A DNA stretch of 64,000 nucleotides. It comes from a bacterium. GTDB lineage: Bacteria; UBP6; UBA1177. The stretch is taken from positions 1-64,000 of the forward strand of contig JAGCXM010000030.1 in assembly GCA_017961325.1 (NCBI GenBank), written 5' to 3'. The position numbers and the translations under genes are program-made. The notes below the pieces were generated by a model. That model worked only from the letters and a program-made list of their open reading frames with translations, did no database searches and was not told the origin of the DNA. This document shows, piece by piece, positions 21,998 through 59,542 of the stretch; position 1 is the first letter of the stretch, and each line of letters begins with the position of its first letter.

Positions 21998-22090
21998 TAA
22001 AAAAGGCGGATCATGCAGCCGGTTTTTATTATCGCATTCTTTTTGATTTTTAGTATAATCGTATGTCTTTTGATTCTTGCGGAGTTTAAA

Positions 22091-39671: not shown

Positions 39672-41294
39672 ATGAAAAAAATACTGACTCTTGTTCTTGT
39701 TTCTTTCACGGTGATGTGTTTGGCATCGTGTGCTTCGCAGCTCACCGTCCGTGAAAAGGAAATGAAAAAGTACGAGAAGATTGACGTCTCTCTCGTTGAA
39801 GGTATGCCAGAAGCGATTACGAAAGTTGTAAAAGCATACAACAATGAAGATTATTTCACTTCGGCTGTCGGCTTTTATGCCATTATGAAAAACAATGAAT
39901 GGGACAGACTGCACGATACGGCGAGATATTACTATGCTGAGTCTCTTTTCAGAATGGGACTTTACCAGGCTTCAGAATATCAGCTTGCAGAAATCCTTTT
40001 CGAGGGTTCTGAATCGCACTATTTCATATCGAGTCTTCTGAAGCTTCTTGCCGTAACATATAAAACGGAAGACGAGAAAGTGCTTATTGCGGTTCTGTCA
40101 AACGTTGATTATGAAGCTCTTCCAAAGAAGTTCGCGAACGAGTTGACTTACTACTTGGGCAAAATCAACTTCTACAACGGTCAGGACGAGCAGGCTCTGA
40201 AAATGTTCTCGCAGGTAAAGGATTACAGTTCCTTCTACCCGAAAGCTAAATATTTCCTAGGTGTCATTCAGGTTCGTCAGCAGATGTTTGCAGAAGCTAT
40301 GAAGAGTTTTAACGAAATCAAGGAAATGCCGGACGACAAATATATCGGTACCGATATCAAAAAGTTGAAAGGTATGGCTGAACTTGCACTCGGTGAACTT
40401 TACTACGCAGCTGCATGGAAGTCGGAAAACAAAGTCGCGATGTTCAATGTTGCACTCAACTACTTCTCAAACGTCGGAAGAGACAACGCTCAGTGGTTTG
40501 AATCACTTTTCGCAAGAACATGGGCTTCTCTTATGATCGGAAGATTTGATGCTACGCTTGGAACGGTCGTTACGCTCAGATCCCCGTTTTTCACCGATAT
40601 TTATTTCCCGGAAGTAAATGTCGTTGAAGCGGTTACATACTACAACCTTTGCCAGTATGACGAAGTAAACAACGTCATTGACTACTTCTTCAGCGTTTAC
40701 CCGGATTATCAGAAGAAAATGTCGAATTGGCTTGAAAATGTTTCGACGAAAACCGGTCTTGACATTTATAAGGAACTCCTTGTAATGTATAAACAGGCTC
40801 AGGCAGGTGAAGCAACAGAGCTTCCGGAAGCTGTTTTGAGAACAATTCTTACCGAAAATCTCTTTATAAGGAAATACAATCACATTAAGGAGATTGAAAG
40901 AGAACTTGCGATTGTTGAAAATTCGTCTGAATCTTTTAAAAACAGCGTAATTGCCCAGGATGTTTCCAAAAAAATGATATATCAGCTGACTACTCTCAGA
41001 AACGAAGCCGGCGTATGGCTTGTTCAGAAAGTTCAGAACATGAACAATGAACTGTCTCAGCTCATCGCTGATATGAGAGCGATCCGTTTCGAGATGACCG
41101 ATAGTATGAAATCGGCACTTGAAAAAGAAGAACTTTACGGCAAAGAGGTTAAAGAGGAGGAACAGGAGCAGAAAAAGACCGAAATGAATCCTTCCGTTCC
41201 GCAGAATTCCTACTACTATCCGTTTGACGGCGAATATTGGGAAGACGAACTCGGCTACTACTTCTTCAATGTCGATAATTTGTGTAAAGAGTAA
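39672..41294 (+). CDS. TPR lipoprotein of the Glt/Agl-like cluster
   Basis: A 540-residue lipoprotein (lipobox ASC after MKKILTLVLVSFTVMCL). Residues 45-390 are TPR-like helical pairs (YYYAESLFRMGLYQASEYQL, YYLGKINFYNGQDEQALKMF, KYFLGVIQVRQQMFAEAMKS). Residues 390-500 form a coiled coil. The C-terminus, YYPFDGEYWEDELGYYFFN, is a motif I associate with TPR proteins of myxobacterial gliding loci. Likely an outer-membrane-anchored periplasmic scaffold. RBS is weak (GGGTGC). Confidence 0.72.
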   Translation: MKKILTLVLVSFTVMCLASCASQLTVREKEMKKYEKIDVSLVEGMPEAITKVVKAYNNEDYFTSAVGFYAIMKNNEWDRLHDTARYYYAESLFRMGLYQASEYQLAEILFEGSESHYFISSLLKLLAVTYKTEDEKVLIAVLSNVDYEALPKKFANELTYYLGKINFYNGQDEQALKMFSQVKDYSSFYPKAKYFLGVIQVRQQMFAEAMKSFNEIKEMPDDKYIGTDIKKLKGMAELALGELYYAAAWKSENKVAMFNVALNYFSNVGRDNAQWFESLFARTWASLMIGRFDATLGTVVTLRSPFFTDIYFPEVNVVEAVTYYNLCQYDEVNNVIDYFFSVYPDYQKKMSNWLENVSTKTGLDIYKELLVMYKQAQAGEATELPEAVLRTILTENLFIRKYNHIKEIERELAIVENSSESFKNSVIAQDVSKKMIYQLTTLRNEAGVWLVQKVQNMNNELSQLIADMRAIRFEMTDSMKSALEKEELYGKEVKEEEQEQKKTEMNPSVPQNSYYYPFDGEYWEDELGYYFFNVDNLCKE

Positions 41295-41319: not shown

Positions 41320-44300
41320 ATGTCAAATAACAAAACACTAAGAACTCTTTTGGTGATTTTATTAGTTCTTTCTTTTTCTACGACTCTTTTTGCTCAGAGA
41401 CAGAAAAGAACGGATGAAACACCGGCTTCTACCGGCCCGGCAAAGACTCGTATCGAAGCTGATGCTGTCAAAACAGATAGCAAATCGATGCAGATGAGAG
41501 ACGAGTCAATCAAACAGCTTAACGAACTTATAAAAGATTATCCTGAAGGTCCGAGAAAGGCTGAGATTTACAGAAGACTTGCCGAACTTTACTGGGAAAA
41601 AGCAAGAGGCATCAAAGCTGTCATCATGGACGAGTACAACAAAAAAATTGATAAGTACTACGAAATGAACGACCCGAACGCTCCGATGCCGGAACTCAAT
41701 CTCGACCAGTCGCTTGAATGGAACAAGAAAGCGATCGAAATTTGCGACTACATTATTAAAAAGTATCCGACTTTCCAGAATTTGGATGAAGTTTACTTCT
41801 TCATGGCTTCAAACTTGATGGAAACCGGTCAGAGTCTTGCAGCAGTTCGTTACTACACACTTGTTGTAGAAAAGTTCAACAATTCCAAGTTCGCTTCTGA
41901 CGCTTACTTTGAAATGGGTGAATATTTCTTCAACAACAACAACGTTTTCAAGGCTATTCCTAACTACAAAGCGATTATTGACAAGTATCCGGACAACAAA
42001 TTCTACGGATTTGCTCTTTACAAATATGCATGGTGTATGTATAACGTCGGTGAATACGAACAGTCTGTAAAACTTTTCCAGCAGGTTGTTGAAGTCGCTG
42101 ACAAAATCAATGACCAGTCATTGAAGGAAGATGCTCTTAACGATATGGTTGCTCCTTATGCTGAATCGGGTTCCGTTGACCAGGCTGAGAAATACTTTAA
42201 GACGATCGTTAAAGAACAGAAATACTTTATTGCGGTTCTTAAAAGACTTGCACAGATTTACTTCGATCAGGACAGATCTGAAGAAGCAATCAAAATTTAC
42301 AGAAAACTTCAGGAAGAAGCTCCTGAAAGACCGGAAGGTCCGACTTGGCAGAAACAGATTGTCGAGTGCTACAAGAAACTCAACAACAAAGATGCCGTCA
42401 GAAAAGAAATCATTGTTTTGGTTGCCAACTATGCTGATGCAAACTCACGCTGGGTAAAGGCGAACGCAAACGATGAAGCTACATTGGAAAGTGCTCAGCA
42501 GACTTCCGAAGCCGCTCTCAGGATTTTGACTGTTGACTACCACAACGAAGCAAGAAAAACGAAGTCTCCCGAAACGTGGAAAATCGTCGGTGAACTTTAT
42601 CCGACATACCTCAAATATTTCCCGAAATCGGAAGCTTCCTACGATATGCGTTTCAACTACGCAGAATATCTTTACGACCACAAAAAATATACGGAAGCCG
42701 GTGACCAGTATCAGGCTGTTGCCGATATGAACCCGAAAGGTCATCACTTCGAAGATGCTTCCTACGGCGCAGTCAGCTGCTTCGGTGCACTTCTTGAAGC
42801 TGAGCAGGAAAAAGCTAAGAAAGAGGCTCAGAACAGAATCGCTAAAGCGAAACAGGAAAAATCGGGTGAAATCAGTGCGGATCTTGTAAAAGCGGCGGAC
42901 GACAAAGATGCCGACAAAAAAGACAGAGTCGCTGATGAAAACAAGGAAAAACCGATTCCTGAGCTTCATCAGAAGTTCATAACTGCTTGTGACACCTATA
43001 TTAAAAATATCCCGAGATCAAAATATCTTGTTGATATTATCTACAAGCAGGCTATTACTTACTACGTTTTCAACCATTTTGAAAAGGCTGTTCCTGTTTT
43101 CGAGATGATCGTTCAGAAATATCCGAGGCACGAACTTGCCGAGTTCTCGGCTGACCTTATCATGGACTCTCTCAACATGGCGAGAGACTGGGAAGCTATT
43201 AATAACAAGTCAAGAGAATTTTTGAAGAATTCGGCTCTTCTTTCCGGTAGAAACAGATTGAAAGCCGACCTCGAGAAGTTCAAAGAAATGGCAACGTTCT
43301 ACGCTGCTGACATTCCGCACAAAAATGGAAAAAGCCTTGATTCGGCTGACAGATACATGGCATTCGTAAATGAATTCCAGAAGTCGAAGTTTAACGATGT
43401 CGCTATGTACAACGCAATCGTTTACTACCAGAAAGGCGGTGACCTTTACAAGTCGATCCGTGTTCAGGAACAGTTCCTCAGAGAGTCCGACGATGTTTAC
43501 AAAAAATCTCCGCACAGAGACAAAATCATGTTCGGACTTGCAAAGAACTACGAAGCTATTGCTTACTACGATAAGGCGGCTCAGCTTTATATCGATTTCG
43601 TTGAAAAATCTCCGAACAGCAAGGATTCAGGCGATGCGGTCTACAACGCAGCCGTTCTTTACGAAAGTTTGGGCGAAACCGAAAAAGCTATTGACAATTA
43701 CAGGCTTTTTGTCGAAAAATATGCGAAAGACGACAAAGAAAAAGCTGAAATCGCACTTCGTTACGGCTACATTTGGATGAGAAAGGGCAAATCTTTCTAT
43801 GACAAGGCCGAAAAAGGTTTCGACAGATTCGTCTCTGAACACACCGTCATCAACGGTTTGAAGGATTACTATTATATTGATGATGCAGGTAAGAGAAAAC
43901 CTGTTGATTCAGTCAATAAAATCAGTGTTGAAAAAGGTGAACCGAACACTCTGCTTGCCCTTTACGGCGCAAAGATGAAAATGTATAAAGAACAGGGCAA
44001 CACGAAGGAATACTACAAGAGTGTTGACAAGATTCTCCAAATTTCGAGAGGCGCAGAGTTCAAAGAAAAGGCTGAATTGGGCGAAAATTCGAGAGATATC
44101 ATCGCCGAAGCTCTTCTGGAAGAACTTATTCCCGAATACAACGAATACATGTCAATCAAGTTTGACAACATTCCTTTTGCGAAGAAACACAAAGGTTACG
44201 AACTTCTTCAGCTCGGTTTCGATGTCGAAGACGGCAAAATTATCCATCACGGTGATGCAAATCCTGATGAATTGTATCCTGATGAAAAGGCTAATTTGAA

Positions 44301-44955
44301 AGCGGCTGCAAAAGTAAAAGATGAGTTCAACAAGGTTTCTCAGGAGAGAATGACCAAAAAGATCGAACTTACGGTTTCTCTTTCGCAGAAATATGAACAG
44401 ATCATTGAAATTACCGCTTCTCCGAGATTCACTCCGGCGGTTCTCTACTACATTGGAAAGATTTACAAAGACTTGACTGACCAGATGTTTAACGCTCCGA
44501 TCGCTCCGTGGCTTAGCGAAGCTCAAATTTCTGAGTATAAGAACTATTTGGATGAAAAGGCTTTCGGTGCTCAGAAAAATGCCGTTACCTACTTCGAAAC
44601 GGCAATGAAGAAAGGTTATGAAAGTTCCGTTTACAACGAGTGGGTTGCAAAGGCAAAATACGAACTTCGTTTCTTTCAGGAAGTTACCGGCGGGAAATAT
44701 TATGATGAAAATGAGATCGTTCCGCAGTCAGACATGATCGAAACGTCATCGTTGATCGGAAAAATCGATACGAATTTCAATTTCCCGAAGATTTCAGACG
44801 AGGAACGTGCGAAATTGAAAAAATCGATAAATCATTCCAATCAGCAGCAGGCTCAGCCTGCGGCTGCTGAAGCTCCTGCGGAATCAGCTGGGCAGGAACA
44901 GTCGGCTGAACCGAAAGATGAAAATGTTGAAAGTAACGAGGAAGAGGGAGAATAA
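41320..44955 (+). CDS. 1211-residue TPR protein, GltI/AgmK-like
   Basis: Signal peptide in residues 1-26 (LVILLVLSFSTTLFAQ). The rest is nearly all TPR/Sel1-like helices: AEIYRRLAELYWEKA, AYFEMGEYFFNNNNVFKAIP, FALYKYAWCMYNVGEYEQS, and DKIMFGLAKNYEAIAYYDKA. The end is Ala/Pro/Glu-rich. Large periplasmic TPR proteins of this kind (AgmK/GltI) are structural parts of the Myxococcus gliding complex. The match is one of architecture and gene order. The next lipoprotein starts 2 nt after its stop, so the two are coupled. Confidence 0.7.
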   Translation: MSNNKTLRTLLVILLVLSFSTTLFAQRQKRTDETPASTGPAKTRIEADAVKTDSKSMQMRDESIKQLNELIKDYPEGPRKAEIYRRLAELYWEKARGIKAVIMDEYNKKIDKYYEMNDPNAPMPELNLDQSLEWNKKAIEICDYIIKKYPTFQNLDEVYFFMASNLMETGQSLAAVRYYTLVVEKFNNSKFASDAYFEMGEYFFNNNNVFKAIPNYKAIIDKYPDNKFYGFALYKYAWCMYNVGEYEQSVKLFQQVVEVADKINDQSLKEDALNDMVAPYAESGSVDQAEKYFKTIVKEQKYFIAVLKRLAQIYFDQDRSEEAIKIYRKLQEEAPERPEGPTWQKQIVECYKKLNNKDAVRKEIIVLVANYADANSRWVKANANDEATLESAQQTSEAALRILTVDYHNEARKTKSPETWKIVGELYPTYLKYFPKSEASYDMRFNYAEYLYDHKKYTEAGDQYQAVADMNPKGHHFEDASYGAVSCFGALLEAEQEKAKKEAQNRIAKAKQEKSGEISADLVKAADDKDADKKDRVADENKEKPIPELHQKFITACDTYIKNIPRSKYLVDIIYKQAITYYVFNHFEKAVPVFEMIVQKYPRHELAEFSADLIMDSLNMARDWEAINNKSREFLKNSALLSGRNRLKADLEKFKEMATFYAADIPHKNGKSLDSADRYMAFVNEFQKSKFNDVAMYNAIVYYQKGGDLYKSIRVQEQFLRESDDVYKKSPHRDKIMFGLAKNYEAIAYYDKAAQLYIDFVEKSPNSKDSGDAVYNAAVLYESLGETEKAIDNYRLFVEKYAKDDKEKAEIALRYGYIWMRKGKSFYDKAEKGFDRFVSEHTVINGLKDYYYIDDAGKRKPVDSVNKISVEKGEPNTLLALYGAKMKMYKEQGNTKEYYKSVDKILQISRGAEFKEKAELGENSRDIIAEALLEELIPEYNEYMSIKFDNIPFAKKHKGYELLQLGFDVEDGKIIHHGDANPDELYPDEKANLKAAAKVKDEFNKVSQERMTKKIELTVSLSQKYEQIIEITASPRFTPAVLYYIGKIYKDLTDQMFNAPIAPWLSEAQISEYKNYLDEKAFGAQKNAVTYFETAMKKGYESSVYNEWVAKAKYELRFFQEVTGGKYYDENEIVPQSDMIETSSLIGKIDTNFNFPKISDEERAKLKKSINHSNQQQAQPAAAEAPAESAGQEQSAEPKDENVESNEEEGE

Positions 44956-44957
44956 CG

Positions 44958-46121
44958 ATGAAAAAAATAATATTATCTTTCTTGTTGATGTTTTCCTTGA
45001 TTTTGACTTCTTGTGGAACGGCTTCGGAAAAAACTCAGGAACAAAAACCCGAGGCAACAAAGGCACAAGCCGCAGAAGTTAAACGGGAGAAGCCGAAAGA
45101 ACCGGAAGATTGGGCTAAATATTATACTGAAGAAGGTATGAAGGCTCTCGAAGTCAAAGACGGTAAGGTTGACTTTGACGCAGCAATCAAAAATTTCGAA
45201 CATGCGGTCGAAACTTATCCGACAGCTCCGGTTTTGCATTACAACCTCGGTTTGGCTTATCAGCGCAAGGGTGATGACCAGAACGCTGTCAAAGCTTACA
45301 ACAAGGCACTTGAACTTGATCCGAAATATTCTCTGCCGGTTATCAACAAGGCGGCCATTTATGCCAACAAACTTGAGTACAACCGTGCGATAGAAGTTTG
45401 CGAGAAGTTTCTCGAAAAGGAAAACGACAAGGATAAAGGCGTTCTTTCGGCAGTCGCAGGTTTTTACCTTTTGAAAGGTGACTACATCAATGCGATTCAG
45501 TCCGTTAGAAAGATTCTCATTCAGGATCAGGCTGATGTCGATGCGCTTAAAAACCTCGGTATGATTTATTTTAAAAAGAATGATGCCGGTCTTGCTTCGA
45601 TGGTAACGACAAACTCTTACAATTTGAAGCCGGACGATGCTGGTATCGCGAACAACCGCGGCGTTCTTTATTCAGCTCAGAACGATGATTCTCTTGCCAT
45701 GCTTTACTTCTCGCGTGCAATAGCGAATGATCCGAAGAATAAAAGTGCAAACTTCAACGTCGGATCGATTGCTATGAAATACGGCGACGCAGAAACTGCT
45801 TATGAAAGATTTTCTGTCGTTTTGTCGCAGGATCCAGACAATTTGAATGCAAGAATCGGTCTTGCAATGGCTTTGAGAGGTCTTGGCAGATTCGAAGATG
45901 CTGAAAAAGAATATTTGGCAGTTCTTCAGAAAGATCCGAACAACGCGATTGCGACTTTCAACCTTGCTGTTCTTTATAACGACCATATGAACAAGCAGGT
46001 AGAGGCAAAGAGAAACTTCAGAAAGTTCCAGTCTCTCCAGAGAGATATTCCGGCTGACCACATTGTTAACGAATATTTGAGTGACAAAGTGCAGATCAGA
46101 CCGGTTGAAAAAACCGAATAG
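44958..46121 (+). CDS. TPR lipoprotein, AglT/GltE-like
   Basis: A 387-residue lipoprotein (MKKIILSFLLMFSLILTSC, then GTASEKTQEQ). After a Lys/Glu-rich linker come eight canonical TPRs, e.g. APVLHYNLGLAYQRKGDDQN, AVKAYNKALELDPKYSLPV, ADVDALKNLGMIYFKKNDAG and NAIATFNLAVLYNDHMNKQV. AglT/GltE of Myxococcus is a lipoprotein of the same size with the same repeats. It probably anchors the periplasmic scaffold to the outer membrane. GAGGGAGAA precedes the ATG. Confidence 0.75.
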   Translation: MKKIILSFLLMFSLILTSCGTASEKTQEQKPEATKAQAAEVKREKPKEPEDWAKYYTEEGMKALEVKDGKVDFDAAIKNFEHAVETYPTAPVLHYNLGLAYQRKGDDQNAVKAYNKALELDPKYSLPVINKAAIYANKLEYNRAIEVCEKFLEKENDKDKGVLSAVAGFYLLKGDYINAIQSVRKILIQDQADVDALKNLGMIYFKKNDAGLASMVTTNSYNLKPDDAGIANNRGVLYSAQNDDSLAMLYFSRAIANDPKNKSANFNVGSIAMKYGDAETAYERFSVVLSQDPDNLNARIGLAMALRGLGRFEDAEKEYLAVLQKDPNNAIATFNLAVLYNDHMNKQVEAKRNFRKFQSLQRDIPADHIVNEYLSDKVQIRPVEKTE

Positions 46122-46492: not shown

Positions 46493-47908
46493 ATGCCTGA
46501 GAAATCAAAAATGAGAAAAAGATTGCTTTATGATTTGTCTCCGATTCCGGAAATTCCGGTAAATGAAGGAGCCAAAGGTAAGCTTGAACCTGAAATCCGA
46601 GTTGTTTATGACAACAAAGTTTTGCTTGATATGCAGAAAATCGACAAAACTTATACTCTCGGAACGGAAACTGGTGCAGATTGCATTGTCGATGAAGCTT
46701 ATTTGTCGGACAAATCATTCAAATTTGCATCTGTTTCGGGCAAGAATTTTTCTGTAAACCTTCAGAATGGCTTTAAAGGTTCCATTTACAGAGGTAAGGA
46801 AAAAACCGATCTCGAACAGTTCATTGCTTCTGGAAACACGAGTGTCGATATTGATGACACTACGCTCCTTATCGCGAATTTCGGTGCGATTTCCGTTTGC
46901 GCATTGAAATCGCCGGCTGAGCCTTACAAAGGCGGCGGATTATTCAAGCAGTTCGATTTCGCGCTTGCGATAATCCTGCTTATAATCTTTATTGCCGGTG
47001 GTTTTGTTCTCAACATGATCATTGAGACCCCGCCTATCGAAGTCGATATCTTTGAGCTTGACAACAGATTTGCAAAGCTAATTGTTGAAACCAAAGAGGA
47101 AGAAATAAAGGTTGAGGAGATCGAAGAAGAAAAGAAAGTAAAACTCGAAAAACCGAAAGAAGGTCTTGTAGAAGCTACTTCACAGAGAAAGTCTCTCGGC
47201 GAAGAGGGTAGAGTCGGTGATAAGAAAAGCCGTGTTGCAAACGCTCAGGGTTCTGCAAGAAGAGGTCTTGACGCGAAAGTTGCACAGAGTTCCGGTATTA
47301 TGGGTGCTCTTTCATCCGGTGCTGCAAGTTTCGACCGAGTATTCGGCGGCGGCGGTCTTGGTGCCGGCATGGAAAAGACGCTCGGTTCCGTAACGGGTCT
47401 TGCTGGTGTCGACCAGTTCGGTTCAGGCGGTCTCGGAACAAGAGGTTTCGGTACAGGCGGCGGCGGTAACGCTCTCGGAATCGGCGGTCTCGGAACAAGA
47501 GGACGTGGCGGCGGCGGTGCCAGCGGTAAATACGGTATGGCTGCTGGTCAGATCGGAAGAAAAGGTCGTTCAGATATTTCTGCAGGCGGCGGTCAGGCAG
47601 TTATCATGGGTGCTCTTGATAGATCCGTCATTGACGCATATATCAGAAGAAACCTTGCAAAGATCAGATGGTGCTACGAAAAGGAACTTAATAAAGATCC
47701 GAAACTTTTCGGAAGAATCGTTATTAACTTCATAATTTCGGCAACAGGTGCTGTAAGCAGTTCCAAGGTTCAGAGAACCACGATGGGTAACGCAACGGTT
47801 GAAAGCTGCGTTGCTGATCAGATTAAGAAGATTCGTTTCCCTGCTCCGAAAGGCGGCGGTATCGTTATCGTAAACTATCCGTTTGTATTTAAGAACTCGG
47901 AAGGGTAG
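46493..47908 (+). CDS. AgmX/PglI C-terminal domain protein (FHA-like/TM/Gly-rich/TonB-like)
   Basis: A 471-residue inner-membrane protein without a signal peptide. Residues 30-135 look FHA-like (YTLGTETGADCIVDEAYLSD). Residues 154-176 are one membrane segment. Residues 190-225 are Glu/Lys-rich, and 270-365 are Gly-rich with repeated GLGTRGxGxGGGG. Residues 375-471 are the AgmX/PglI C-terminal, TonB-like fold: IRRNLAKIRWCYEKELNKDP, GRIVINFIISATGAVSSSKV, and a final VNYPFVFKN. By design it links the cytoplasm and inner membrane to the outer membrane, as GltJ/GltG do in Myxococcus. Confidence 0.82.
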   Translation: MPEKSKMRKRLLYDLSPIPEIPVNEGAKGKLEPEIRVVYDNKVLLDMQKIDKTYTLGTETGADCIVDEAYLSDKSFKFASVSGKNFSVNLQNGFKGSIYRGKEKTDLEQFIASGNTSVDIDDTTLLIANFGAISVCALKSPAEPYKGGGLFKQFDFALAIILLIIFIAGGFVLNMIIETPPIEVDIFELDNRFAKLIVETKEEEIKVEEIEEEKKVKLEKPKEGLVEATSQRKSLGEEGRVGDKKSRVANAQGSARRGLDAKVAQSSGIMGALSSGAASFDRVFGGGGLGAGMEKTLGSVTGLAGVDQFGSGGLGTRGFGTGGGGNALGIGGLGTRGRGGGGASGKYGMAAGQIGRKGRSDISAGGGQAVIMGALDRSVIDAYIRRNLAKIRWCYEKELNKDPKLFGRIVINFIISATGAVSSSKVQRTTMGNATVESCVADQIKKIRFPAPKGGGIVIVNYPFVFKNSEG

Positions 47909-47917
47909 GGGGAGAAT

Positions 47918-48571
47918 ATGAAAAAACTGTTTTTGCTGCTGATAGCACTTTTGGTAAGTTTTTCGCTTTTTGCGGCTGAGTCCGAAGAAGCAACCGGCGA
48001 TGTTTCCGGAAACGATTTGAATCCTATTTTAAGAGGACTCCATCTTCAGTTTTCCGGCGGTATTGTTGGTTATATCGGCAAAGCTGGCGGAAAAAATGCC
48101 GGAAGTCCTCTCGGTTCGACTTTGAGGCTCAATTTCGGTTATGATATACAGATAAAAGAAGCTGCGGCTATCGGGATCGCGCTTTCCGTAGGTATGCTGC
48201 AGTTCAATGCAAACGAAAACGATGCCGATCTTGATCAGAAATACAAGGATTCTCCGTGGGTCGAAGATTTTAACCCGCTTACATTAGGTCTTGATGTCGA
48301 TGTTACCTGGATGATTGATCCTAGATGGGAATTCGGTGTTCTTATCAATTTCGACTACTACGCTCTTGCAAAAACCTACAAATCTGGCAGTAATGCGATT
48401 GACGGCAAAACCAACAGCGGTAATATCGCTGTCGGCGGCGGTCTGATTTTCGAGCGTTACACGTTTGCGCGCCATTTCTCGGTAGGTGCATCCGTTGAAT
48501 TCAATTATATTCTTGATTTCGACGGCATGAATATAATCGTAACTCCGTTTATGAAGTATACATTCTTCTAA
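47918..48571 (+). CDS. Outer-membrane beta-barrel protein, CglE-like
   Basis: A 217-residue protein: signal peptide ending LFAAES, then barrel strands (RGLHLQFSGGIVGYIGKAGG, STLRLNFGYDIQIKEAAAIG, FSVGASVEFNYILDFDGMN) and a terminal Phe (MKYTFF). Size and position recall CglE of myxobacterial gliding loci. GGGGGAGA precedes the ATG, 9 nt after the AgmX-like stop. Confidence 0.65.
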   Translation: MKKLFLLLIALLVSFSLFAAESEEATGDVSGNDLNPILRGLHLQFSGGIVGYIGKAGGKNAGSPLGSTLRLNFGYDIQIKEAAAIGIALSVGMLQFNANENDADLDQKYKDSPWVEDFNPLTLGLDVDVTWMIDPRWEFGVLINFDYYALAKTYKSGSNAIDGKTNSGNIAVGGGLIFERYTFARHFSVGASVEFNYILDFDGMNIIVTPFMKYTFF

Positions 48572-49454: not shown

Positions 49455-50162
49455 ATGAAAATCATTCTATGTATCTTCTTTTTTATGTTTTTTTCGTTGA
49501 CAGCGGCAGAAAAGTCCCTTTCAGTTGATTCCGCCGGCGGTGAATCGGATGTGAAAACTGTCGGAACAAAGCCGGAATCAGATCCGTCACGCGGTATCTC
49601 TACACCTTTGAACGAGGAGGGATACGATATTAAACTCAAAAATCTTGAAGAAAGAATCAACAGTTTGAAAGACAAAATTTTCAGGTCGAAGCAGCGTTTG
49701 GCGGTTTTGCAGGAGAGCGTTATGGGCGGCACGATTGCGGAAACTAATGTTTCGATAGTCCACAAAAACACTGCCAATTCTTTTTTTCGGCTGATTTCAG
49801 CTGTTTTTTATTTCGATGACAGGCAAATTTTTTCCAAAAGCGACGCTCCTGAAGAACTTGAAAAGCAGGAAATCACTATTTATGACGCCGAAGTCACTCC
49901 GGGAACTCACAACATCTCCGTCTTTTATGTTTTTGGGGGCAAAAAATACGGAGTTTTTTCCTATCTGCAGGATTACACTTTCAAAATCAACGCCGAATAC
50001 ACTTTTTCGATTGATGAAGGAAACAGGGCGGAAATTGTCGTTTCTCCGGTTGACAAGGGCGGTGAATACAATTTTAACAACAGGCTGTATATAAAATTCG
50101 ACATTAGCGGAACGCCTTTCGATTTGCCCGGCGGCGGTGAAACAGCATTGAAGCAGGAGTGA
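49455..50162 (+). CDS. Exported protein of myxobacterial gliding-type loci
   Basis: A 235-residue protein: signal peptide ending SLTAAEKS, a low-complexity segment, a coiled coil (residues 55-90: NLEERINSLKDKIFRSKQRL), and a beta domain (SFFRLISAVFYFDDRQIFSK, ITIYDAEVTPGTHNISVFYV, YGVFSYLQDYTFKINAEYTF). The domain resembles proteins beside TPR genes in myxobacterial genomes that are often misnamed dihydrolipoamide acetyltransferase. It overlaps the next gene's ribosome-site region. Confidence 0.6.
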   Translation: MKIILCIFFFMFFSLTAAEKSLSVDSAGGESDVKTVGTKPESDPSRGISTPLNEEGYDIKLKNLEERINSLKDKIFRSKQRLAVLQESVMGGTIAETNVSIVHKNTANSFFRLISAVFYFDDRQIFSKSDAPEELEKQEITIYDAEVTPGTHNISVFYVFGGKKYGVFSYLQDYTFKINAEYTFSIDEGNRAEIVVSPVDKGGEYNFNNRLYIKFDISGTPFDLPGGGETALKQE

Positions 50163-50164
50163 TT

Positions 50165-52420
50165 ATGACTGCGCGTCTCGGAGTTTTTGTTATTACGCTG
50201 CTGTTTTTTTCCGCGCTTTCCGCGGCTGATTCGCCGGATAAAACTGCTGCAAAAACAATCGATGCCGTGCGTGAAAGTCTCAAGGAAATCGAAAGTTTTT
50301 GCGATAAAAACATCAAAAGGACGGTTTCGTATGAAGCTTCAGCCGCTGACGATAGGGATTTGACCGGAAAAATGAAGAAAGGGAGAATATTTTTTGAAAA
50401 TGGGAAGTATGATACGGCTTCGGATTTGTTTTATTCGGTCGTCGCGCTTCATCCGGATAACGATGCGATGCGTTCTGAGGCTTTGCTGATGCTGGCAGAG
50501 TCGCTTTACCGGCAGAAAAATTACATTTCGTCGGCGAGATACTACGAAATGCTGCTTTCGGCGACAGGCAACCGCGATTATATGAAGAAAAGTTTAATCC
50601 GTATCGTTGAATCGAATTACTATTTGGGCAACTATTCGGCTGCGAAAAAATATTACGACACCTTTTTTGAGGCGGCGGTCGGTACTTCCGATTCGGAACT
50701 TTCGTATTATTTGGGCAGAAGTCTGTTTTACGGCAAGCGATTTTCCGAAGCGGTCTCGTTTTTTTACGCTGTTGAAAAAAAATCCGAATTTTATCCGCAG
50801 GCGCGCTATTTTCTGGGGATGCTTTCGTTAAAAGAGGGCGAATACGACGATGCCTTTTCGTTTTTTGAAGAAATCGTTGAGTTGAAGGACAGCGGATTCT
50901 ATCATAAATTCGATGAAATCAGGGAAAAGGCTTTTCTTGCGGCTGCCAGAGCTGCATTCAAAACGGGCGATTTCGAAAAGGCGTCGCGCTATTACCGGAT
51001 GACGGACAAACGCTCGCCATTTTTTGCTGAAGCCTGTTTCGAGCTTGCTTTGGCTTGTATAAAATCAGCTGATTACAAAGGAGCGATAGATGCGCTTCAT
51101 CTTATAAAGCAGGTTGCACCGCATTCAGCTTTCATTCCGAAAGCCGAAGTTCTCGAGAGGACTGTTCTTGTTCGTACGAAACGATACGGCGAAGCTGCGG
51201 CCCTTTTTGATTCGGCGGTCAAAAAATACGGCAAAATTCAGGACGAGTTGTTTGTGGTTGACGGCGGAATGTTTATGTCCGGTCAGTCGAAACGCGTTTC
51301 CGATTTTCTTATGCCCTATTCTCTGCTTGTGCAGTCGCTTTTGAAGGACAACCGGAAATTTAAGAAGGCGGTTAAACTCAACGAGAGTGCGGAGATTCTT
51401 GAAAGCGAACTTTCCCAGCTGCATTCCCGCGAAAGAAAACTTGCGGCTGCGCTTTACAGCAAAAATATCGCGGCGGTTTATCCTCCGCTGATTGAAAGTG
51501 CAAGGAAGACGCTTTTTCTCAGGGATAGAATTGCTGTAATCAGAAGCAATCTTGCAATGATGCAGAAATCGTCGGTCGAAAAAGTGCTTGATGAAGCCGG
51601 ACGCCGCGAATTCGGTAAACTTGACGCCGAAAAACGTAATCTTCTTGGAATTTCGGAATCGTTCGTGAGCAATCCTGCAAAAATTCGCGAACGGGCCGAA
51701 GAATACGGCGGCAGAGTTGCTAAAAACGATGCGGAACTCCGTAAAATTTCAATGGATCTTGCTTCAATGGCTAAAGACCTCGAAGCAGTGTCCGCGTTTT
51801 ACGGAGAGGATCGCATGTCTGCTGAAAATGACGAAAAAAAATTTCTCAATAAGGTCGTGAGCGAGCGTGATGCCCTCCGCGATATGGTTCTGGAGGCCGA
51901 TTCCTGCGGAACCGAACTTGAAAAAGAGAAGAACAGCATTGTTTCCGGCGGAGGAACCGAAGCGCGTGAAATCGCGATAAGAGAGCGGCTGAATCAGATT
52001 ACTGACAGACAGTATGCTGTTGCAAAGCCGAAAAAAAAGTCCGAAATTCACAGACTGATGGGTGAAGCCGACAGGATCGACAGAAAACTTGCGGATTATT
52101 ATGACTCTCTCAACGGGGCTGTCCGCGAACTTTTCGATACGATACGCATCTCTTTTGAAAAGGAAAAAATAGAAATTGACGCATACCGCAGCGAACTTGC
52201 CGGAATAAGGCGTGAGGTCGATGAAATGTCGGTTCTTGCAATGTATTCCGATCTCAATGCCGTGAAAACCGCCGTAGCGTCATATTTTCATCTCGGTGAA
52301 TCGGGACTTTCTGAAATTTCCGGAAGAAAAAAAATCGGGAATTCAGACAAAATTTTTTCTCTCGAATTTTTGAAAAGCAAGGAGCTCCAGCAGTTTGATT
52401 TTGATTCAGATATGCAATAA
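50165..52420 (+). CDS. Periplasmic TPR/coiled-coil protein, GltC-like
   Basis: A 751-residue protein. Signal peptide in residues 1-22 (FVITLLFFSALSAAD). Residues 60-330 are TPRs (RIFFENGKYDTASDLFYSVV, YYEMLLSATG, SYYLGRSLFYGKRFSEAVSF). Residues 400-720 are mostly long charged helices. I choose ATG 50165 because GCAGGAG lies upstream; GTG 50159 is too close. It is followed by 249 nt and the motor genes. Probably a scaffold in the same envelope machine; no exact family name. Confidence 0.65.
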   Translation: MTARLGVFVITLLFFSALSAADSPDKTAAKTIDAVRESLKEIESFCDKNIKRTVSYEASAADDRDLTGKMKKGRIFFENGKYDTASDLFYSVVALHPDNDAMRSEALLMLAESLYRQKNYISSARYYEMLLSATGNRDYMKKSLIRIVESNYYLGNYSAAKKYYDTFFEAAVGTSDSELSYYLGRSLFYGKRFSEAVSFFYAVEKKSEFYPQARYFLGMLSLKEGEYDDAFSFFEEIVELKDSGFYHKFDEIREKAFLAAARAAFKTGDFEKASRYYRMTDKRSPFFAEACFELALACIKSADYKGAIDALHLIKQVAPHSAFIPKAEVLERTVLVRTKRYGEAAALFDSAVKKYGKIQDELFVVDGGMFMSGQSKRVSDFLMPYSLLVQSLLKDNRKFKKAVKLNESAEILESELSQLHSRERKLAAALYSKNIAAVYPPLIESARKTLFLRDRIAVIRSNLAMMQKSSVEKVLDEAGRREFGKLDAEKRNLLGISESFVSNPAKIRERAEEYGGRVAKNDAELRKISMDLASMAKDLEAVSAFYGEDRMSAENDEKKFLNKVVSERDALRDMVLEADSCGTELEKEKNSIVSGGGTEAREIAIRERLNQITDRQYAVAKPKKKSEIHRLMGEADRIDRKLADYYDSLNGAVRELFDTIRISFEKEKIEIDAYRSELAGIRREVDEMSVLAMYSDLNAVKTAVASYFHLGESGLSEISGRKKIGNSDKIFSLEFLKSKELQQFDFDSDMQ

Positions 52421-52669: not shown

Positions 52670-53305
52670 ATGGAATGGTTTGCTGAGTTTTATCGTTCAG
52701 GCGGAACATTTATGCACTTCATCGCTATCTGCGGTCTGTATGTTCTCGGTGTTTCGATTTACAAGTTCATCATGTTGTTTGTAAAAATGAACACAAACGG
52801 CGCAAATTTGATGAAACAGATCCAGAAACTCGTTATGGCCAACAAAGTTGACAAGGCTATCACGCTTTGCGACGGTGTAGGCAGTGCAGCACTTGCAAAA
52901 GTTTTGAAAGCTGGTCTTTCAAAGGCAAACAGAGGCGAGCTTGAAATTCAGAACGCAATGGAAGAGGCTACTCTTGAAGTTGCTCCGAAAGTTACAAGCC
53001 TTCTTCCCAGCGTATTCGCAATATCGAGTACCGCTACGATGTTCGGACTTCTCGGAACGGTTTTCGGTCTTATCGATGCATTCGACGCCGTTGCACACGC
53101 TGCCCCTGAGCAGAAATCGGCAATGCTTGCAAGCGGTATCGCAATCGCGATGAACACCACCGGTTGGGGACTTCTTATCGCTATCCCTGGAACTATTTTG
53201 AACCTTTTCCTCAACGGTCTTGCTGGCAAAATTATGAGCGACCTTGACCTTTACACGGTTAAACTTTCCAACCTGCTTACGAGCAGAGAGAAAACAGCTG
53301 AATAA
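52670..53305 (+). CDS. MotA/TolQ/ExbB-type proton channel (AglR-like)
   Basis: A 211-residue inner-membrane protein with three membrane segments: residues 15-37 (MHFIAICGLYVLGVSIYKFI), about 115-140 (VFAISSTATMFGLLGTVFGL) and 155-182 (IAIAMNTTGWGLLIAIPGTI). Conserved Thr and Gly/Pro positions of TolQ are present. With two TolR-type partners it should form a proton-driven motor, like AglR-AglQ-AglS of Myxococcus. ATG 52670 follows GGAGG; the 30 upstream codons of the open frame are leader sequence. Confidence 0.88.
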   Translation: MEWFAEFYRSGGTFMHFIAICGLYVLGVSIYKFIMLFVKMNTNGANLMKQIQKLVMANKVDKAITLCDGVGSAALAKVLKAGLSKANRGELEIQNAMEEATLEVAPKVTSLLPSVFAISSTATMFGLLGTVFGLIDAFDAVAHAAPEQKSAMLASGIAIAMNTTGWGLLIAIPGTILNLFLNGLAGKIMSDLDLYTVKLSNLLTSREKTAE

Positions 53306-53332: not shown

Positions 53333-53881
53333 ATGGGTAAGAGGCGTTCACCCGGGTCCAATCCGGATCTCGATATGACGGCTGCAATGAACCTCATTCT
53401 TATTCTTATTCCGTTGTTGTTGACCTCAATGGAGTCTGTTAAAATAGCTGTTGTCAATGTTTCAACACCGCAGATCGGTCCTTCTTCGGAGGCAAATCCG
53501 CCGGTGGACAGACCTGATGACAAACCTCTTAAACTTACGGTTGCCCTGACAGACAGAGGCATTACCGTTTTCGTAAGAGATCAGGTTATTGAAAACAAAG
53601 ACGATCCGTTGGGTCCGACAATTCTTAAGATTGACGGAGAGGAAGAAGATGCTGAAGGCAAAATGGTCCCAGGAAAAGTTTACGATATCGAAAAACTTGT
53701 TGAGATCATTTCGGATTTGAAAGATGAAAATCCGGCCGAAGAAAATATTATTATTACCGCTGAGCCGAACACTAAGTACAAATACATTATGAAAATAATG
53801 GACGCAACGCGCGAAAAGGCTGAAGGCGAAAAGAAGAAAAAACTTTTCCCGAATGTCGTACTTAGTGCAGGTATAGCATAA
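53333..53881 (+). CDS. TolR/ExbD-type protein with Asn in place of the proton-carrying Asp
   Basis: A 182-residue protein with one membrane segment at residues 17-36 and a periplasmic domain (KLTVALTDRGITVFVRDQVI...IIITAEPNTKYKYIMKIMDA). In ExbD/TolR the motif is N-x-T-P-x-x-D-V at the start of the membrane helix. Here DLDMTAAMNLILILIPLLLT aligns so that the Asp position is Asn20. Asp14 lies six residues earlier, in the position of the usual Asn. GGAGG precedes the ATG. It may be a structural rather than proton-carrying subunit. Confidence 0.82.
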   Translation: MGKRRSPGSNPDLDMTAAMNLILILIPLLLTSMESVKIAVVNVSTPQIGPSSEANPPVDRPDDKPLKLTVALTDRGITVFVRDQVIENKDDPLGPTILKIDGEEEDAEGKMVPGKVYDIEKLVEIISDLKDENPAEENIIITAEPNTKYKYIMKIMDATREKAEGEKKKKLFPNVVLSAGIA

Positions 53882-53891
53882 GGAGGAGATT

Positions 53892-54467
53892 ATGAGCGAA
53901 GAGATTAAAACATTTGAATATCTCCCCGAAAATTACGAAGAAGAAATTCTTAAAAGCAGAAAGAAGGCTAAAGAAGGCAGAAGCAGCGGCGGTCCTCAGA
54001 AAGTAAACATCAACTCGTTGATGGATATTCTTACGATCATGCTCGTTTTCCTTCTTAAGAGTTATGCGACAGACCCTGTCAACATTACTCCTGGACCGGA
54101 TTTGGATATTCCGAAGTCGACTTCAATGTTGCAGCCTGCTGCAACTGTTACGATTACGGTTGCAAAGTCTTCAATAGTTGTTGACAACGAGCCTGTTTCG
54201 GTCGTTAAGGACGGCAAAGTCGAAGCTTCACAGAAACGCGGCGGCGAAGATGCTTATTTCATTATTCCTTTGAATAAGGCACTTGTCGAAGCTGTTGAAA
54301 AGAAAAGAAGACTCGAAGCCATCAACCCGACTGTCAAGTTTGACGGCGTTGCAACAATCGTTATGGACAAGGAGAGTCCGTATCGTCTGCTGACGGAGGT
54401 TATGTATACGGCAGGTCAGGCTGAGTTTACGAACTTCAAGTTTGCAACGATTTCCGCAGCCGGTTAA
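53892..54467 (+). CDS. TolR/ExbD-type protein with canonical Asp
   Basis: A 191-residue protein with a 35-residue charged cytoplasmic N-terminus. The membrane helix at residues 38-58 (KVNINSLMDILTIMLVFLLK) keeps the proton-carrying Asp45, and a periplasmic domain follows (TVTITVAKSSIVVDNEPVSV ... GVATIVMDKESPYRLLTEVM). It probably supplies the active carboxylate for the motor. AGGAGGAG precedes the ATG, 10 nt after the preceding stop. A strong terminator follows. Confidence 0.85.
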   Translation: MSEEIKTFEYLPENYEEEILKSRKKAKEGRSSGGPQKVNINSLMDILTIMLVFLLKSYATDPVNITPGPDLDIPKSTSMLQPAATVTITVAKSSIVVDNEPVSVVKDGKVEASQKRGGEDAYFIIPLNKALVEAVEKKRRLEAINPTVKFDGVATIVMDKESPYRLLTEVMYTAGQAEFTNFKFATISAAG

Positions 54468-55332: not shown

Positions 55333-56742
55333 ATGAAAAGCAGGTGCTTTTTTGTAATAATTTCAATATTTTATGTCTTGATTTCAACTGTTTCCCTTTT
55401 TGCCGAAGATGGCCGTGTAAAGGGATTTAAAATAACAAAGGATACCGTATTAAATGTCGGCATTGCCATAAATTCAGAGTATGAATCCAATATCACTAAG
55501 GCTTCGGAAAGTACGACTGTAACCGATACGAGAAAAAATGAAGGAGAAGAACAGAATACCGAAATTGTTTCAGATATGATTCTGCATTACAGCCCGTCTT
55601 TTCGGATTAAATTGGATGATGAAAGAAAAACTATCGGATTTTCTCTGCTTTTTGATTACAATCATTATCTCGGTCTTGATAATAGTGCAACTTCCAAAAA
55701 ACTTTCGGAACTTGAAATCAGATCCGATTTCCTCGGTGAATTCAACAAAGAGGGTTTGTTGACTTTTGATTTTAAAAACTCGCTTTTAAGAACAGCTACT
55801 CCGGACGGACCGGAACTTTCAGGAAAACATAAGAATGTTTTTGATACTTTCGCTTTCGGCTTTGCATTTAAAAATATCGAAGATACGCTCTACGGCAAAA
55901 TCAGGCTGGGAGTTGATATAAACTATTTGGAACAGTCGCAGGAAATACTTTATTACAAAGACTACAATTATGTTTCTGCTCTGGCGGATTTTTTCGGAAA
56001 ATGGAAGTTTCTGCCGAAGACAATGGCTTTTTTTTCAGTTGCAACGAGGTATCATGATTATTACGAATCAAGAATCCGAGATGCATCCAGGGCTGTTCCG
56101 ATAAATGCGTTCGTCGGTGTGATGGGACAGTTTTCACGCTATTTTTCTTCAAAGATTTCAGTCGGTTACTCTGTTAATATAGGGCGTGATGTCAAGCACG
56201 ACTACAATGCCAATGCCGAGATAGTCTTTAAATATAACGATCTCGGTGCGGTTTTGGGATACCTCAGAATGATGCGGCCTTCGGCATATTACGGCTACAG
56301 TTCGTCTCATAAACTTTATTTCAATTTCAAGCAGAAATTCGCAAAGCGTTTCCTTGCGGCGGTTAGTCTGAATTATTCGCATATTGTTTTCGGACATAAT
56401 ATACTGTATGACGAGCGTGACGATTACGAAAAACTGTCGGACGGTTCTTATCAGCTGCTTGTTTCGGATGACAATGAGGAAACCGTTTATACGATTGTTC
56501 TCCCGAAAGGAAACAGAAAGGAACACCGTGTCGTGTTTATGCCGTCGTTTTCTTATGCGATTTTACCCTGGCTCGGTCTTAAACTGAGTTACACGCTGGA
56601 ATACAAAGATACCGGTTACTTCCAGAAATCAAAAATTGAATACACTCATGATGCGGATTCAAAAAATTATACGAAAACTACGACAACACACTATGATTAC
56701 ATTGATCACAGAGTGATGCTTGCTATAGTTATGGATTATTGA
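55333..56742 (+). CDS. Outer-membrane barrel of polysaccharide export (Wzp/BBP2-like)
   Basis: A 469-residue barrel: signal peptide ending SLFAEDG, then about 18 amphipathic strands such as IGFSLLFDYNHYLGLDNSAT, LTFDFKNSLLRTATPDGPEL, LYFNFKQKFAKRFLAAVSLN and LKLSYTLEYKDTGYFQ, closing with MLAIVMDY. In Myxococcus, barrels of this type partner with short OPX proteins that lack their own outer-membrane helix. The next gene is just such a short OPX protein, with which its stop overlaps. Confidence 0.72.
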   Translation: MKSRCFFVIISIFYVLISTVSLFAEDGRVKGFKITKDTVLNVGIAINSEYESNITKASESTTVTDTRKNEGEEQNTEIVSDMILHYSPSFRIKLDDERKTIGFSLLFDYNHYLGLDNSATSKKLSELEIRSDFLGEFNKEGLLTFDFKNSLLRTATPDGPELSGKHKNVFDTFAFGFAFKNIEDTLYGKIRLGVDINYLEQSQEILYYKDYNYVSALADFFGKWKFLPKTMAFFSVATRYHDYYESRIRDASRAVPINAFVGVMGQFSRYFSSKISVGYSVNIGRDVKHDYNANAEIVFKYNDLGAVLGYLRMMRPSAYYGYSSSHKLYFNFKQKFAKRFLAAVSLNYSHIVFGHNILYDERDDYEKLSDGSYQLLVSDDNEETVYTIVLPKGNRKEHRVVFMPSFSYAILPWLGLKLSYTLEYKDTGYFQKSKIEYTHDADSKNYTKTTTTHYDYIDHRVMLAIVMDY

Positions 56743-57368
56743 TGATGAAAAAAATTATTCCGGTTTTGTTTTTAGCACTTTTTGTTTCCTGTACCATAAA
56801 AGTCGGTGACGGGAGCGACAAGAATGCCGTTTCAGCTATGCCGAACGATGAAAGTGTTGAAGAACACGGTTCGGATCCGCTTTCGTTTATCGGTGCAGGA
56901 GACAAAATCAACATTCAGGTTTTCAACGAAAAGGAACTTTCCGGTGTTTATCAGGTTAGTCCGGAAGGATACATAATGTTTCCTTTTATCGGCAAACTAA
57001 AGGTCAACGGTATGGACAACTTCTCCGTTTCGGTGAAAATCGCAGAAAAACTGAAAGACGGTTACCTGAAGGATCCGAATGTCACCGTTTCCGTAGAAGA
57101 ATTCGTAAGTAAAAGGATTTTTGTGCTGGGACAGGTTAAAAAAGCCGACAGTTTTCCGATAAGAAGACGCATGAGCGTTATCGAAGCCATCAGTCTTGCC
57201 GGCGGATTCACGAATCTGGCAGATCTTTCCAATGTCGTTGTGACGAGAAAGGTCGGCGGCAGGGAAAAACGGTTCGTCGTTGATATAAAGTCGATAGTGA
57301 ACGGTGCGAAGGAGAATTTCTACCTTGAGGCAGGGGATATTGTTTTCGTGGGAGAAAAGTTTTTCTGA
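56742..57368 (+). CDS. Short OPX polysaccharide export lipoprotein (Wza-like)
   Basis: A 208-residue lipoprotein (MMKKIIPVLFLALFVSC, then TIKVGDGSD). The Poly_export domain covers residues 48-125 (YQVSPEGYIMFPFIGKLKVN, VTVSVEEFVSKRIFVLGQV). One SLBB domain follows (SVIEAISLAGGFTNLADLSN, YLEAGDIVFVGE). It lacks the extra SLBB domains and the C-terminal amphipathic helix of E. coli Wza (about 380 residues), so it cannot span the outer membrane alone. ATG 56742 overlaps the barrel stop. Confidence 0.85.
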   Translation: MMKKIIPVLFLALFVSCTIKVGDGSDKNAVSAMPNDESVEEHGSDPLSFIGAGDKINIQVFNEKELSGVYQVSPEGYIMFPFIGKLKVNGMDNFSVSVKIAEKLKDGYLKDPNVTVSVEEFVSKRIFVLGQVKKADSFPIRRRMSVIEAISLAGGFTNLADLSNVVVTRKVGGREKRFVVDIKSIVNGAKENFYLEAGDIVFVGEKFF

Positions 57369-59542
57369 TGAACGAACAGGAACGCGAAATAGATTTGCTT
57401 GAAATATTGAATCTGTTTAAGCGGCATATCTATCTTTTTGCTGCCATAATCATCATAGTGATGACTTTTGCCGCGGCCCAGCTTTATCGGATGAAAAAGA
57501 TTTATTCTTCGACTGTAACGATAGAAATCGAGCCTCAGGCCACCAATGTTCTGGGCGGCGATATGGAACTTGTCAAGAGCGGTATCAATGCGCAGGAGAA
57601 TTCCATCTCTTCCAAGGATTATTATACCGCTCAGTATGAAATCATAAAAAGTCGTGCCGTTTCGCAAAAGGTTTTGGAAACGATTCCCAATGATAAGATT
57701 CATGAATATCTGGGTTTTGATTCAGAACGGTTTCCGGAAGAATACAACAGCATAGATCCGGTCAGCATTTTACAGGATAAAATCACTGTCGAGCCGCAGA
57801 AAAGCAACAACATCGTGCGGATTTCCGTAGAGAATGCCGATCCTGAGAAAGCTGCTTTTCTGGCAAATGCGGTTGCATCATCCTACATCGAATTTAATCT
57901 GGAAAAGAAATATTTCGAGACGAAGGATGCTGCAAAGTGGCTCGTGGACCAGAGTTTGAGTCTGAAGCAGAATCTCGAAAATTCCGAAATGGCGCTTTTT
58001 GAGTTCAAGGAAAGCAATAATGTCCTTGCGACGACTTTTGAGGCTAAGCAGGATCTTCTTGCAAGGCAAATCAGCAAACTGACGGGGATTCTTACCGATC
58101 AGGAAATCAGGCGGAATGCTTTGACTTCAAAGATCGAAGAGTATTCCCGTATAGATTTCAACAATCCCGACGATGCGCTTTTTTACGAACTCAGCAAGGA
58201 AAACAACGCCATCGGCAATATGATGAAGCTGAAATATCTGGAAGTTATTTCAAAAATTGATGAGTCCATGCAGGTTTACGGTGAAAAGCATCCGAAAGTC
58301 GTTGCTCTGCTTGCTGAAAAAGGCAACATAGAGACTTCGTTCAGAAACGAAATCACCGGCATTGTAAATAGTTACAGCCTTAGTCTTAAAATACTCGACA
58401 ACGAGATGAAAAAGAACCGCAGAATGCTTGCTGAAACGCAGGAAGAGGCGACTAACCTGAAGAAGTTGGAGATAAATTACAGCAAGTTGCGCCGTGAAGT
58501 GGAAACGAACAAGAAACTTTACGATATAGTGCTTGAAAGATCGAAAAAGGCGGATCTGAGCGCGTTGCTGAAAAACAACAACATAAGGATAATCGACCGC
58601 GCACTCGTGCCGAAAGTTCCTGTGAAACCGAACAAACAGACGATTCTGCTTACAGGTTTTGTCATCGCGCTTGTTCTGGCGTCGCTGGCTGTTTTTCTTG
58701 TTGAGTTCTTTGATACGAAGTTTAAGAGTTTCAAGGAAGTCGAGACGATTTCACAGAAGCCGGTTCTCGGCATTATACCTAAATTCCAGCAGACTGAAGA
58801 TTCTGATTTTAAGGAGATTGTTTTCGGAGAGAAAAGCGGTCAGGGTTTGGCAGTTGAGGCTTTCAGAACGCTTAGAACCAACATAAAACTAAGCAATCCC
58901 GATTCAAAGCTTGGTGTTATGCTTGTTACGAGCTGTGTTCCTCATGAAGGTAAAACCGTTGTCGCATCGAATCTTGCCGCTAGTTATTCGGTTGCCGGTA
59001 AAAAAGCGATTATTGTTGATGCCGATATGAGAAAACCGCGGGTTCATGAAATTTTCGGGCTTTCAAACGAAAAGGGGCTTTCAACCCTGATTGTCGGAGA
59101 ACATTCGATGGATGAAGTGATACACAGAAATGTTTGCGAAGGGCTTGATGTCGTTACTGCGGGAATGATTCCGCCGAATCCGGCTGAACTTTTGGAAAGC
59201 GGAAGAATGGCGGATATCATGAAATGTTTTTCTGAAAAATACGATGTCGTGATTGTTGATTCTCCGCCGCTTACTCCTGTCAGCGATGCCGCAATCATTG
59301 CACCGCTGACCGACGGGATGATTATTGCATTAAATATCGGAAATACTCCGCGTGACATTTTCAAATCTGTGGTTCAGAACATTGTAAGATCCGGAATTTC
59401 CATTCTTGGTACTGTCGTCAACAATATCGATTTAAGGCAGGAACGGAAGTTTAAGTCATATTCCGGATATTCTTATTATAATTCTTCGTATTGTATTTCG
59501 GAGGAAGATGAGAAAATTTTTAAAAAGAAAAAATTTTCATAG
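57368..59542 (+). CDS. Polysaccharide co-polymerase with BY-kinase domain (Wzc-like)
   Basis: A 724-residue inner-membrane protein. The Wzz domain starts after the first membrane segment (residues 18-36) and a long coiled coil spans about 190-410. The second membrane segment is near 425-447. The tyrosine kinase domain covers 490-700: VTSCVPHEGKTVVASNLAAS (Walker A), IIVDADMRKPRV, and DVVIVDSPPLTPVSDA (Walker B). It ends in a Tyr cluster (YSGYSYYNSSY) for autophosphorylation. It controls chain length and export. Its start overlaps the OPX stop. Confidence 0.92.
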   Translation: MNEQEREIDLLEILNLFKRHIYLFAAIIIIVMTFAAAQLYRMKKIYSSTVTIEIEPQATNVLGGDMELVKSGINAQENSISSKDYYTAQYEIIKSRAVSQKVLETIPNDKIHEYLGFDSERFPEEYNSIDPVSILQDKITVEPQKSNNIVRISVENADPEKAAFLANAVASSYIEFNLEKKYFETKDAAKWLVDQSLSLKQNLENSEMALFEFKESNNVLATTFEAKQDLLARQISKLTGILTDQEIRRNALTSKIEEYSRIDFNNPDDALFYELSKENNAIGNMMKLKYLEVISKIDESMQVYGEKHPKVVALLAEKGNIETSFRNEITGIVNSYSLSLKILDNEMKKNRRMLAETQEEATNLKKLEINYSKLRREVETNKKLYDIVLERSKKADLSALLKNNNIRIIDRALVPKVPVKPNKQTILLTGFVIALVLASLAVFLVEFFDTKFKSFKEVETISQKPVLGIIPKFQQTEDSDFKEIVFGEKSGQGLAVEAFRTLRTNIKLSNPDSKLGVMLVTSCVPHEGKTVVASNLAASYSVAGKKAIIVDADMRKPRVHEIFGLSNEKGLSTLIVGEHSMDEVIHRNVCEGLDVVTAGMIPPNPAELLESGRMADIMKCFSEKYDVVIVDSPPLTPVSDAAIIAPLTDGMIIALNIGNTPRDIFKSVVQNIVRSGISILGTVVNNIDLRQERKFKSYSGYSYYNSSYCISEEDEKIFKKKKFS

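Follow-up and report, generated by a model that had tools for sequence, protein, structure and literature searches.

Motors of the ExbBD and TolQR family combine a ring with an axle (5:2), and the axle is a homodimer carrying two Asp residues. Systems with two ExbD proteins are also known in TonB biology. In Myxococcus xanthus, the AglRQS motor works with Glt or Nfs, and its two TolR-type proteins, AglQ and AglS, are both described as carrying the Asp; whether they assemble as a heterodimer or as homodimers was left open in a 2022 review (PMC9389320). When the Asp of AglQ was replaced by hand (D28N), proton conduction was abolished and this two-Asp motor was paralysed (PMC3858216), indicating that, unless adapted to it, a motor built on two Asp residues cannot withstand an Asp to Asn change. 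Rotary models, as summarised in 2025, count 36 degrees per proton and assume two acids (PMC12215075). Clusters of the aglRQS-gltCDEG type outside the gliding myxobacteria, termed "Group B", were described in several distant groups by Luciano et al. in 2011 (PMC3169522).

Here, we describe a related locus from a gut bacterium of the uncultured candidate phylum UBP6, among whose named members UBA1196, UBA1209, and UBA1177 are relatives, found in a window of 64,000 nucleotides, that is, the whole stretch of DNA that was analysed. One TolQ gene is followed by two different TolR genes, TolR1 and TolR2 (Table 1). Both TolR proteins passed the PF02472 (ExbD) cut-off of 25.4 bits, TolR1 with 37.0 bits and TolR2 with 40.3 bits. 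PDB sequence searches with TolR1 and TolR2 returned nothing useful. The AlphaFold models of both proteins showed a single N-terminal transmembrane helix (residues 15-38 in TolR1) followed by an ExbD-like periplasmic domain. ExbD 8vgc was the best related PDB match of both the TolR1 model (Foldseek probability 0.98, E = 0.044) and the TolR2 model (probability 1.00, E = 1.4e-3); these E-values are modest, and no match had an E-value at or below 0.001.

Table 1. Motor genes, key codons and Glt-like neighbours in the window.
Feature	Position	Strand	Evidence
GltC-like TPR protein	39672..41294	+	NF033756, 259 bits (cut-off 450)
Large TPR protein of the cluster	41320..44955	+	TIGR02795 and other TPR models
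GltE-like TPR lipoprotein	44958..46121	+	NF033758, 110 bits (cut-off 225)
GltG-like protein, AgmX/PglI (TonB-like) C-terminal domain	46493..47908	+	NF033760, 282 bits (equivalog cut-off 650); NF033768, 105 bits (above cut-off)
CglE-like outer-membrane protein	47918..48571	+	NF033755, 72.8 bits (just above the cut-off of 70)
Weakly GltC-like TPR protein immediately preceding TolQ	50159..52420	+	Profile matches
Ring subunit of TolQ/ExbB type (211 aa, counted from ATG)	52670..53305	+	PF01618, E = 9.5e-21; alignment to structurally characterised ExbB and TolQ
TolQ Thr163 codon, residue tracking the number of axle carboxylates	53156..53158	+	TolQ profile column 194; ExbB/TolQ alignment
TolR1 in the AglQ position, the first of two ExbD/TolR subunits, non-acidic	53333..53881	+	PF02472, E = 4.2e-9
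TolR1 Asn20 codon (AAC), proton-carrier Asp position	53390..53392	+	Alignment
TolR2, second ExbD/TolR subunit, acid kept, AglS position	53892..54467	+	PF02472, E = 3.9e-10
TolR2 Asp45 codon (GAT), proton-carrier Asp	54024..54026	+	Alignment

A sequence-only reading of the locus had placed Asn20 of TolR1 at the position of the essential membrane Asp and had assigned the retained Asp to residue 45 of TolR2. Both assignments were borne out. An ungapped alignment put Asn20 in the Asp column, the segment reading 'DLDMTAAM[N]LILILIPLLL' in the window and 'DLNLTPAM[N]LILILIPLLL' in UBP6 relatives, as compared with 'ELNIVPYL[D]ILMNLIIFML' in Asp-type homologues, and TolR2 has Asp at the proton-carrier column. 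Asp14 of TolR1 was rejected as the proton site, since it is Asn in the UBP6 sister genera and lies off the Asp column. None of the UBP6 orthologues read had Asp at position 20: the first TolR had Asn at the site in all intact copies and Ser in three diverged ones, while the second TolR had Asp in every case read. As a control, the single-TolR/ExbD proteins of UBP6 genomes showed Asp in 32/32, a set that leaves out one further pattern match, which is a TolQ and not an ExbD. Purifying selection acts on TolR1 (dN/dS of ~0.05-0.11 across three comparisons within a genus), whose conservation peaks in the membrane helix, at residues 18-37. The possibility that TolR1 is a pseudogene or a sequencing artefact was rejected on the grounds of dN/dS and conservation.

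Some UBP6 loci stood apart. In two MAGs, G003 (L026/L033/L121) and G012 (L017/L110), TolR1 was split into two frames, the breaks, which may be assembly errors or real indels, falling at different places and TolQ and TolR2 being intact. In three genomes of UBP6 family f4, diverged second triads (L057, L058, and L059) had a first TolR in which Ser occupies the Asp site.

Using a TolR1 profile as query, we searched UBP6, small phyla, the phylum to which genome G055 belongs (probably Myxococcota; 195 genomes), and 386 genomes drawn as a spread sample, retrieved the loci, and scored the residue at the Asp site in both TolR proteins. This yielded 151 non-redundant TolQ-TolR-TolR triads, which, with the first TolR given first, were distributed as N/D (72), S/D (4), G/D (4), D/D (65), D/A (3), and D/G (3). 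Single-Asp triads thus made up 86/151, with Asn, Ser or Gly in the first TolR and Asp in the second in 80, and the reverse arrangement, Asp first and Ala or Gly second, in 6. Triads without any Asp numbered 0/151, so that in this sample the count was one or two but never zero. In a later set from three further phyla, 102/102 triads were N/D, a few of them belonging to genomes that the first set had covered too. Every complete triad with a non-acidic first TolR had an Asp-bearing second TolR. For one locus that appeared to have no Asp-bearing partner (L061), the Asp-bearing second TolR was located 2.3 kb downstream, and for a second such case (G329), it was located on another contig, with no TolQ within the ~1.5 kb fetched on either side; the latter arrangement is consistent with a shared ring. 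The incomplete loci L169, L170, L171, and L246 fall outside these resolved N/D cases. The reverse triads (L218, L226, L228, L229, L231, and L237) came from six genomes, each of which also possesses an N/D triad. Activity in these D/A and D/G triads must come from the first TolR, so either subunit can carry the acid. The one-acid arrangement is fixed in many bacterial phyla. What had been read as a trait of this pair is the property of a broad subfamily, and two-Asp motors such as AglQ/AglS account for only part of the triads.

We built a tree from TolQ, TolR1, and TolR2 with the site columns omitted; it is unrooted, and the order of states is not polarised. On this tree, the first TolR switched between Asp and non-Asp at least six times and the second TolR once. 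A D/D clade (L225, L233, L236, and L245) was nested inside Asn triads, and its first TolR keeps the Asn-type LIPxLL motif; this nesting points to the acid having been regained there. The D/A and D/G clade was nested inside D/D triads. As the Asp of the second TolR was lost only once on the tree, the observation that both are never lost carries little statistical weight.

The ring subunit also bore a trace of the number of acids. Thr164 of TolQ, a conserved pore Thr, aligns with ExbB Thr181, and the residue just before it, Thr163, occupies a column that was Thr in 84/86 single-Asp triads of either arrangement (all 151 triads considered), and Asn, Ala, Cys, or Ser, never Thr, in the 64/64 two-Asp triads read. 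Within the tree set, Thr was present in 62/64 triads with first-TolR loss and 3/3 with second-TolR loss, and Asn, Ala, Cys, or Ser in 42/42 two-Asp triads; both conserved ring Thr residues were kept throughout. Among the columns compared, this one best predicted single versus double (98.2%, the Asp site of TolR1 itself reaching 97.2%). It changed in step in ~4.9 of 5 supported independent contrasts and never in the opposite direction; with five contrasts the sign test gives p = 0.0625, the lowest value reachable, for a column picked afterwards as the best of many. At the nested reversals, it was Ala or Ser in the D/D triads lying inside Asn triads, and Thr in the D/A and D/G triads lying inside D/D triads. 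The idea that Thr marks one-acid motors exclusively was rejected, as single-TolR systems of UBP6 also have Thr or Ala at this position. From these comparisons, the odd residue at this column is the Asn (or Ala, Cys, or Ser) of the two-Asp mixed triads, which implies no direction of adaptation. The covariation suggests that the helices of TolR1 and TolR2 share a single TolQ ring.

We propose, with a probability of about 0.68, that the three proteins constitute a single proton-driven TolQ5-TolR1-TolR2 motor with a mixed axle whose only acid is Asp45 of TolR2. Such a motor would belong with ExbBD, TolQR, and AglRQS, its TolQ pentamer enclosing one TolR1 and one TolR2. Protons would be taken up and released by Asp45 only, and Asn20 would offer a neutral side chain at the matching site, making the axle asymmetric. 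Each proton would be usable only at a point where the TolR2 side of the axle contacts a TolQ subunit, from which we would expect about five protons per turn, in 72-degree steps, rather than ten in 36-degree steps, or else a rocking stroke. A mixed pair in one ring is favoured by the Asp-bearing partner in every complete triad, by the reverse arrangement, and by the TolQ covariation. It is also the simplest reading of why the acid switches subunit yet is never lost from both, and of why the TolQ residue follows acid number rather than clade. An asymmetric motor with one inactive carboxylate was what the sequence-only reading had suggested; of this, the asymmetry proved genuine and is both widespread and conserved, and the inactivity is what we infer. 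Extending the proposal to many phyla, with an obligate mixed axle, a single acid on either TolR, about five protons per turn, and a ring residue tuned to acid number, is tentative, and we would give it slightly less than even odds. If true, alternating use of two acids would be unnecessary for this class of motors.

An unlikely alternative is that the axle is a TolR2 homodimer with two Asp residues, TolR1 being an accessory outside the pore that anchors to peptidoglycan or contacts an output protein. Loss of the TolR1 Asp would then cost nothing, precisely because TolR1 lies outside the pore, and would be the ordinary fate of a paralogue that had left it; the periplasmic domain of TolR1 is indeed well conserved. 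Yet TolR1 is most conserved in the membrane helix, around Asn20, and the TolQ pore residue tracks the acids even where it is the second TolR that has lost its Asp, which is best explained if TolR1 and TolR2 both face TolQ. Moreover, the D/A and D/G triads need an active first TolR. Ring covariation and reverse arrangement would both be left unexplained by a TolR2 homodimer.

That the covariation was simply inherited from a few lineages, Asn20 merely marking an old LIPxLL subfamily of TolR1, appears less probable still. The groups can likewise be told apart by TolQ columns 204 and 190 and by the Pro of LIPxLL in TolR1, and on the tree triads of one state mostly cluster; however, these three positions separate the groups less well, and the Thr/non-Thr column of TolQ flips at both nested reversals. 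Besides, Ser or Gly can replace Asn, so the common factor is the absence of an acid. It is hardly credible that, within a mixed axle, another acid, in TolQ or at a helix end, stands in for Asn20 and keeps two protons per cycle. TolR1 does have acids at both helix ends (Asp12, Asp14, and Glu34), but Asp14 gives way to Asn in sister genera, acids are absent from the core of the helix, and the TolQ position of ExbB Glu176 is mostly Val, Ile, Thr, or Ala in the triads.

Assuming the mixed-axle motor with its single Asp45, output would probably reach the cell surface by way of the GltG-like TonB-type protein together with the cluster's TPR and outer-membrane proteins. The GltG-like protein is the likely output partner, and many Asn/Asp triads in other lineages have a GltG-like gene as a neighbour. 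Downstream of the motor cluster (56739-59542), we noticed genes for a Wza-type polysaccharide export protein and a Wzz/BY-kinase (Wzc)-type protein, a possible link to cargo; in M. xanthus, polysaccharide on the spore surface is moved by AglRQS acting with Nfs (PMC3858216). Elsewhere in the window, an isolated ORF (14162-15481) has by eye the look of a phage head morphogenesis protein, and 22013-23215 encodes a Cys-rich lipoprotein with EGF-like repeats, one of several in the window.

A keyword search of the open-licence literature returned no paper describing a natural loss of Asp from one member of a TolR pair, and we provisionally regard the natural one-acid pair as new to the literature. 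The "Group B" clusters likewise join the motor to GltC/D/E/G-type genes; a word search of that paper (PMC3169522) found no mention of the Asp site, and what our locus adds is the one-acid state. With ExbBD and TolQR, our locus shares the ring-and-axle family, the conserved ring Thr residues, and, in the models, the ExbD-like periplasmic fold, but it has two different TolR proteins and one Asp in place of their two-Asp homodimer. There is a likeness to AglRQS/Glt of M. xanthus, where one TolQ-type gene likewise precedes two TolR-type genes; GltC-, GltE-, GltG-, and CglE-like genes are present in the window too, the first three matching below their equivalog cut-offs. Unlike AglQ, the first TolR of the window naturally carries Asn. 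The Asn/Asp triads are homologues that accommodate a change lethal to the Myxococcus motor, and natural one-acid motors with the acid on either subunit, together with the ring residue that follows it, offer a direct test of AglQ/AglS pairing and of step-per-proton models.
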